Of a stretch of 64,000 nucleotides of DNA, positions 9,430 to 46,975 are shown in pieces; position 1 is the stretch's first letter; every line of letters starts with the position of its first letter. The stretch lies in assembly GCF_000147355.1 (NCBI RefSeq), contig NC_014506.1, forward strand, positions 1,054,001-1,118,000, in the 5' to 3' direction. The position numbers were made by a program, and so were the translations under genes. Source of the DNA: Sulfurimonas autotrophica DSM 16294. Lineage in GTDB: Bacteria > Campylobacterota > Campylobacteria > Campylobacterales > Sulfurimonadaceae. A model generated the notes under the pieces. It was not told the DNA's origin and ran no database searches. It saw nothing but the letters and a program-made list of their open reading frames with translations.

Positions 9430-9700
9430 TTAAGTGCCTGACCATAATAAATGTCATATTCAACAACGCTTAAAAGGTTTAGCTTTAAGGCAAACTTTGG
9501 TTGGCGATACTAGTATCGTTAGCCTAAGTTTAACGAAGAAGATAAGCCTTTTAAGTGTTGCCCTTCGGGTGAAGAAAGAAAACACAATCTACTTCGTTGA
9601 AAATCCTTGAAGCTACTAGTAGCTCCTACGGATTTTCGCCTTGTATCTTATGGTTTCTTTCTTCATTGAATTATGACATTTATTATGGTCGGGCACTTAA
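9430..9700. mobile_element. 271-bp MITE-like element with terminal inverted repeats and two nested hairpins
   Basis: No gene lies between 9395 and 9774; this element fills most of it. Terminal inverted repeats of 28 bases (9430-9457 and 9673-9700, one G-T mismatch, start TTAAGTGCC) enclose two modules. Module A has outer arms 9464-9477/9547-9560, a fixed AAGGC (9487-9491), stem AAACTT/AAGTTT, inner palindrome CGATACTAGTATCG (9505-9518) and fixed AACGAAG (9532-9538). A CCCTTCGGG linker hairpin follows (9561-9569). Module B has outer arms 9571-9581/9654-9664 and the same core on the opposite strand, with stem GAAAATCC/GGATTTTC and inner palindrome GCTACTAGTAGC (9612-9623). The element at 46712-46975 has the same plan with different stems. 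I see no coding capacity. Confidence 0.7.
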
Positions 9701-46711: not shown

Positions 46712-46975
46712 ATACCAATCCCAGCTAAAAGGATGAATGTAAAATAAAAGATAAGTTATTAGCTGCAAGGCAGAGAATTGCAGGAGCTACTAGTAGCTTC
46801 AAAGTTCTCTAACGCAGTCAGATGATGACTTATCTTTTACCCAAAGGGCAGATATATTGCACCAGATTACTTCGTTGAAAGTTCTTGAAGCTACTAGTAG
46901 CTTCTGCAAACTTTCGCCTTGTACTCCAGTACAATATATCTGTTTTACGTTCATCCTTTTAGCTGGGATTGGTAT
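46712..46975. mobile_element. 264-bp MITE-like element with terminal inverted repeats and two nested hairpins
   Basis: It fills most of the gap between 46611 and 47006. Terminal inverted repeats of 33 bases with one mismatch (46712-46744 and 46943-46975, starting ATACCAATCCCAGC) enclose two modules. Module A has outer arms 46746-46756/46828-46838, fixed AAGGC (46767-46771), stem AGAGAA/TTCTCT, inner palindrome AGCTACTAGTAGCT (46785-46798) and AACGCAG (46811-46817). The linker is CCCAAAGGG (46840-46848). Module B has outer arms CAGATATATTG/CAATATATCTG (46849-46859/46932-46942), fixed ACTTCGTTG, stem GAAAGTT/AACTTTC and a palindrome at 46887-46904. A 10-base repeat TATATAGTAA lies near both edges (46703-46712 and 46980-46989). 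The architecture matches 9430-9700. Confidence 0.7.

Follow-up and report, generated by a model that had tools for sequence, protein, structure and literature searches.

A probable IS630-moved MITE superfamily in Campylobacterales with an inverted pair of conserved, strand-polar core hairpins

Background

MITEs are commonly presented as deletion derivatives of insertion sequences, with only their ends being of importance. Several described families of small folded elements resemble, in part, the two intergenic elements analyzed here. RUP of Streptococcus pneumoniae is a 107-bp element linked to IS630-Spn1 (PMC2229807, PMC3049150) and, like the present elements, is an IS630-linked MITE with a TA target, an intergenic position and a strong fold. 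However, RUP is a simple streptococcal element, and the available excerpts of its descriptions present neither a two-arm cloverleaf with inverted cores (PMC2229807, PMC3049150) nor an interior that several end types have in common. The CIR elements of Caulobacter and Brucella also consist of two arms and a linker, with a structure kept between genera (PMC2229807). They differ in exposing GANTC in a loop and in occurring in other bacteria, and no IS630 link is reported in the portion of that source available, the comparison being one of descriptions.

The Correia/NEMIS elements of Neisseria are likewise TA-flanked MITEs located beside genes, and their folded transcripts serve as targets of RNase III (PMC10969869, PMC2229807). 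In contrast to the present elements, their hairpin is formed by the terminal repeats, and conserved inverted cores are not described in the excerpts of those papers. REPINs and GTAG palindromes with RAYT share the pair of inverted small hairpins (PMC3733652), whereas here the GTAG tag is mostly absent, the Y1 transposase is unassociated and IS630 ends are present. The initial annotation of this DNA had stated that no family with this plan was known. We found no described family that matches the plan as a whole, but RUP and CIR share parts of it. We regard the elements as a new MITE superfamily of the familiar IS630-linked type, with an unusual interior that appears to be selected.

Two elements in the window

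The window analyzed here is a stretch of 64,000 nucleotides from Sulfurimonas autotrophica DSM 16294. The features first named for its two intergenic elements (plan, motifs, stems and linkers) were all found in the sequence. Element 1 is a whole MITE of end type A (TAAGTGCCTGACCATAATAAATG) at 9431..9699, with matching terminal inverted repeats and a site that is empty in the relative G115. Its exact ends are TAAGTGCC...GGCACTTA, and its neighbours are a divergent response-regulator gene and a YgiQ/UPF0313-like gene. The left terminal inverted repeat (9431..9459, + strand), where TA is the target duplicate, is closely similar to the ends of the IS630 copies in G195; the right one occupies 9671..9699 on the - strand. 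Between them lie core hairpin 1a (9487..9538, sense on the + strand, AAGGC...AACGAAG), the CCC-TTC-GGG linker mini-hairpin (CCCTTCGGG, 9561..9569) and core hairpin 1b (9592..9642, sense on the - strand).

Element 2 (46713..46974) is a whole MITE of end type B (TACCAATCCCAGCTAAAAGG) with the exact ends TACCAATC...GATTGGTA, flanked on both sides by TAA and situated between the divergent lolA-like and secA genes. Its terminal inverted repeats were located at 46713..46744 (left, + strand) and 46943..46974 (right, - strand), and TACCAATCCCCATTAAA ends are found on an IS630 copy of G165 (L281). Its interior consists of core hairpin 2a (46767..46817, sense on the + strand, ending in AACGCAG), the CCC-AAA-GGG linker mini-hairpin (CCCAAAGGG, 46840..46848) and core hairpin 2b (46870..46920, sense on the - strand). 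The whole elements and the linkers were assigned to neither strand.

The elements are 262-269 bp in size and contain no complete ORF of 60 aa or more. Their fold energies were -129 kcal/mol (element 1) and -139 kcal/mol (element 2), corresponding to z values of about -16 and -17, and no shuffled sequence folded as well (0 of 200 for element 1, 0 of 100 for element 2). Promoter and terminator scans across both elements showed no excess. The home genome (2,153,198 bp) contained four strong cores, all of them within the window, and a decayed third element at genome position ~96,243.

Architecture and end types

Nearly all complete copies have one plan: terminal repeat, core arm, CCCNNNGGG, inverted core arm and terminal repeat. 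The linker CCCNNNGGG was present in 40 of 44 elements, with many loop triplets, and the spacing of paired ends clustered at 240-260 bp. Terminal repeats were grouped into types A (TAAGTGCCTGAC), B (TACCAATCCC), C (TAAGTACCTCTCC), D (TAAGTAATAGG), E (CTGACCTTACGC), F (GGGCACCTCTAAAAACCC) and G (TTGAACCCTCTGA), plus others. Terminal sequences thus differ among subfamilies, while the two inverted ~51-nt hairpins and the CCC-NNN-GGG linker persist throughout the order.

Some loci departed from this plan. Palindromes of ~52-60 bp with type-A ends and no arms (L071, L073, L074, L077 and L078) were considered as minimal or collapsed MITEs. The terminal sequence TTATGGGTGCTTATACTGTGCAGTGGTCTC of a diverged element was doubled in tandem at its right end (L226, G298). 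About 130 bases to the right of the core at L018 (G150), a foldback CATTAAGTTAAG...CTTAACTTAATG lies inside a type-A element and represents a second structured MITE family. In addition, separate elements (L079, L018 and L022) have an insert of ~20 bp, TTTGCTATGCCCTTTGGGTA or the complementary sequence, with small changes, within or beside their cores. The insert forms a mini-hairpin of its own and could be a very small mobile element or have arisen by template switching.

Insertion sites

When the flanks of element 2 were joined, they aligned unbroken with G115, G137 and G184 (83-85 % identity, ~620 bases) and with G478 (95 % over 370 bases); the site was also empty in G167 and G001. In relatives TAA occurs once, against one copy on either side of the element in the home genome; the target duplication is either TA with one additional base or 3 bp long. 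Element 1 has a TA on each side in the home genome, and its site in G115 was empty, with a single TA. The comparison of orthologous loci recommended at the outset yielded clean empty sites in relatives for both elements. Type-B IS630 copies are flanked by TTA on each side, and TTA...TTA is likewise found on type-B MITEs. A different foldback of ~205 bp occupies the very TA of element 1 in the sister genome G478 (L301; 94 % identical). It lies between CTCAATG and AACAAATAATC, and has TTAACA.CACGGT ends and nested hairpins of its own.

Among the classifiable insertions (n = 34), the neighbouring genes were divergent in 15 cases, co-oriented in 18 and convergent in one, and no insertion was within an ORF. 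Divergent and convergent insertions differed (p = 0.0005, uncorrected for gap length), although convergent gaps are probably shorter. Three species carry an element just upstream of secA, each with a different end type, namely the type-B element at 46713-46974, L054 (G123) with type-A ends and L024 (G179) with type-F ends.

IS630 partner

The IS630 transposase domains considered were Pfam DDE_3 and HTH_23/29. An ORF bounded by a type-A end was found in G068 and G196, and in G068 it carries the IS630 HTH and DDE_3 domains. Full-length IS630 copies with both ends matching were found for type A (G195), type B (G165) and C-like ends (G197 and G137, the latter reading TAAGTACCTAATC...). In G020, an IS630 gene is preceded by a type-D end, and the MITEs of that genome bear this end as well. 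An IS630 partner was thus tied by end sequence to types A-D, out of types A-G and the order-level types. The type-D IS630 gene of G020 (L205) is spread over more than one frame, which suggests programmed frameshifting or decay. The core was absent from autonomous IS630 copies; matches were obtained at a single locus, L208, where a MITE lies close to the IS.

DDE_3 was enriched in element-bearing genomes (17/29 versus 58/171, p = 0.013), and no association with the elements was found for Y1_Tnp (42/105 versus 33/95, p = 0.47). No IS630 was detected in most element-bearing genomes, many of which are draft genomes. As no DDE_3 match was found in the home genome, its elements are now orphans that cannot move with a partner of their own. 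The elements have matching ends and a TA-type target, are short, transposase-free and multicopy, and show insertion polymorphism; they are MITEs of the IS630 type. The suggestion of a non-autonomous mobile element is borne out by the many copies, the clean empty sites, the TA-type targets and the same-ended IS630 partners.

Distribution across Campylobacterales

A covariance model was built from the four window cores and searched in 200 genomes of the same family, of which 75 contained matches, with a maximum of 29 per genome. Many core matches were identical inside one genome and some were at contig ends, as with repeats. When 84,980 species were scanned with a DNA pattern, at least 120 stretches were obtained and, among the matches listed, all belonged to Campylobacterota. 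In a phylum-wide sample of 298 genomes, the core was confined to the order and was present in 6 further families. Many of the relatives surveyed were metagenome-assembled genomes. The phage and plasmid records searched contained no related element. The family, searched with a covariance model as first proposed, thus extends far beyond the window's two loci.

Conservation of the core hairpin

In the alignment of the four window cores, 98 % of cells were paired and two-sided changes were observed in 9 of 15 pairs, versus 3.5 in shuffles. With 32 diverged cores, 96.3 % of cells paired and 135 cells had two-sided changes, versus 36.7 when shuffled; the covariation noticed initially thus persisted as the number of cores rose from 4 to 32. 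AGGC, AACG and the last G were invariant in the 32 diverged cores, and the 8-bp core stem was free to vary in sequence with compensation (97 % paired). This stem is usually followed by a GNA/AA internal loop and then by an inner hairpin of variable sequence. The core consensus is RAGGC - 8 bp - GNA / inner hairpin / AA - 8 bp - AACGNNG, of ~51 nt. Throughout the order, GGC, AACG, GNA/AA and the 8-bp spacing are retained, though the terminal sequences differ.

No plausible match to the elements was found in Rfam at gathering or lax thresholds, and a literature search joining Sulfurimonas and MITE returned nothing. Identity with REPIN/RAYT was rejected because a GTAG-type tag 5' of the hairpin was found in only 9 of 82 cores and Y1 gave p = 0.47. 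Integron attC was also rejected, as paired RYYYAAC...GTTRRRY boxes are lacking and, at its foot, the hairpin has the invariant GGC opposite AACG. The core hairpin is apparently undescribed, with neither an Rfam family nor a description in the retrieved literature found.

Strand test on wobble pairs

A transition in a stem gives G.U on one strand and A.C on the other, so that duplex DNA, a cruciform or template-switch repair predict equal numbers of the two. Cores were delimited by the flanking GGC and AACG anchors alone, without use of pairing, and 82 distinct cores from 44 elements were obtained. In the 8-bp stem, read on the AAGGC strand, 61 distinct stems contained 406 Watson-Crick pairs, 60 G.U, 4 A.C and 18 others. 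G.U:A.C was 22:1 in loci retrieved with a DNA pattern that makes no use of the 8-bp stem, and 35:2 in partner cores lacking the pattern's motif. The cores are not all independent; when changes were counted along a tree of 90 cores, 42 led to G.U and 4 to A.C (p = 5e-9). The flanking outer arm stems showed no such bias (G.U 141 versus A.C 111, p = 0.07).

Strand-biased mutation cannot account for the G.U excess because the two cores of an element are on opposite strands. The presence of the bias in the core stem and its absence from the arm stems indicate that the selected unit is the core hairpin as a single strand. Since G.T is also better tolerated than A.C in DNA, the bias fits RNA or single-stranded DNA. 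From these sequence comparisons, the core would function in a folded, single-stranded form and in one polarity, most likely as RNA. The initial view of a kept structure, possibly a structured RNA, is supported for the ~51-nt core by its strand-biased wobbles. It does not extend to the pairing of the outer arms and terminal repeats, which alone is not evidence of an RNA function because transposition itself requires matching terminal repeats and no strand bias was seen in the arm stems.

Proposed explanation and alternatives

The elements probably form a Campylobacterales-wide MITE superfamily moved in trans by IS630, with an interior core kept as a single strand, most likely RNA. Judged by their sequences, IS630-family (Tc1/mariner-type) transposases would recognise the terminal repeats and insert the elements in trans at TA-type targets. 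The terminal repeats would track whichever IS630 is present and would for that reason differ between subfamilies (four end types). The interior can be drawn as a cloverleaf of terminal stem, arm A, CCC-NNN-GGG mini-hairpin and arm B, and may have been retained because each arm bears the ~51-nt core, to which the wobbles assign a single polarity. The core would most likely act as RNA in transcripts running through the element. Because the cores are inverted, any transcript has one sense core in its 5' half, and the inverted arrangement would make the element act alike in either orientation. The effect is likely post-transcriptional, with a putative protein-binding or processing site placed in the leaders of neighbouring genes, and such a site would limit harm to the host or benefit the element. 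More tentatively, the core may be an undescribed functional RNA motif (protein-binding, possibly self-cleaving) with two conserved internal loops, in an orientation-proof inverted pair, which has been passed between IS630 mobilisers across Campylobacterales and seeds regulatory RNA structures into leaders; we consider this extended version possible but rather doubtful.

The core could instead be a single-stranded DNA hairpin for a recombinase or transposase, as in attC, IS200/IS605 ends or REPIN-like elements. Polar hairpins with fixed unpaired bases do resemble such sites, and the inverted pairs resemble REPINs. However, this is unlikely because ends, targets and partners all belong to IS630, whose substrate is duplex DNA. 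Moreover, Y1_Tnp is not associated with the elements, the GTAG tag occurs in just 9/82 cores and the foot of the hairpin lacks GTT/AAC pairing of the attC type.

It is quite improbable that these are ordinary IS630 MITEs with a functionless interior, in which pairing is maintained through template switching (quasi-palindrome correction) in replication and the motifs are shared by descent. Template switching makes compensatory changes without selection, the arm stems have no strand bias, and the existence of palindromes of ~52-60 bp with terminal repeats only implies that the interior is dispensable for existence. Against this, the core stem is biased 60:4 (42:4 as tree events), and GGC, AACG, GNA/AA and the 8-bp spacing are kept order-wide despite the differing ends. 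Cruciform-forming duplex DNA with an architectural or replication function, another of the initial suggestions, can hardly hold: the very long inverted repeats could extrude, but both strands of a cruciform fold without strand preference and G.U should equal A.C, whereas 60:4 was observed.

We thus favour an IS630-moved MITE whose core is kept as a single strand, most likely RNA. The ends vary by subfamily while the strand-polar internal hairpin is kept order-wide, so that the interior itself appears selected, and the elements offer an opportunity to test whether a bacterial MITE carries a functional RNA. The strand bias of G.U versus A.C is also a simple general test for separating RNA selection from palindrome-maintaining mutation. 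As to the fold, 39 of the 44 elements fold preferentially as two self-paired arms, versus five, including element 2, in which pairing of arm with arm is preferred in the lowest-energy RNA fold; two alternative states are thus possible.
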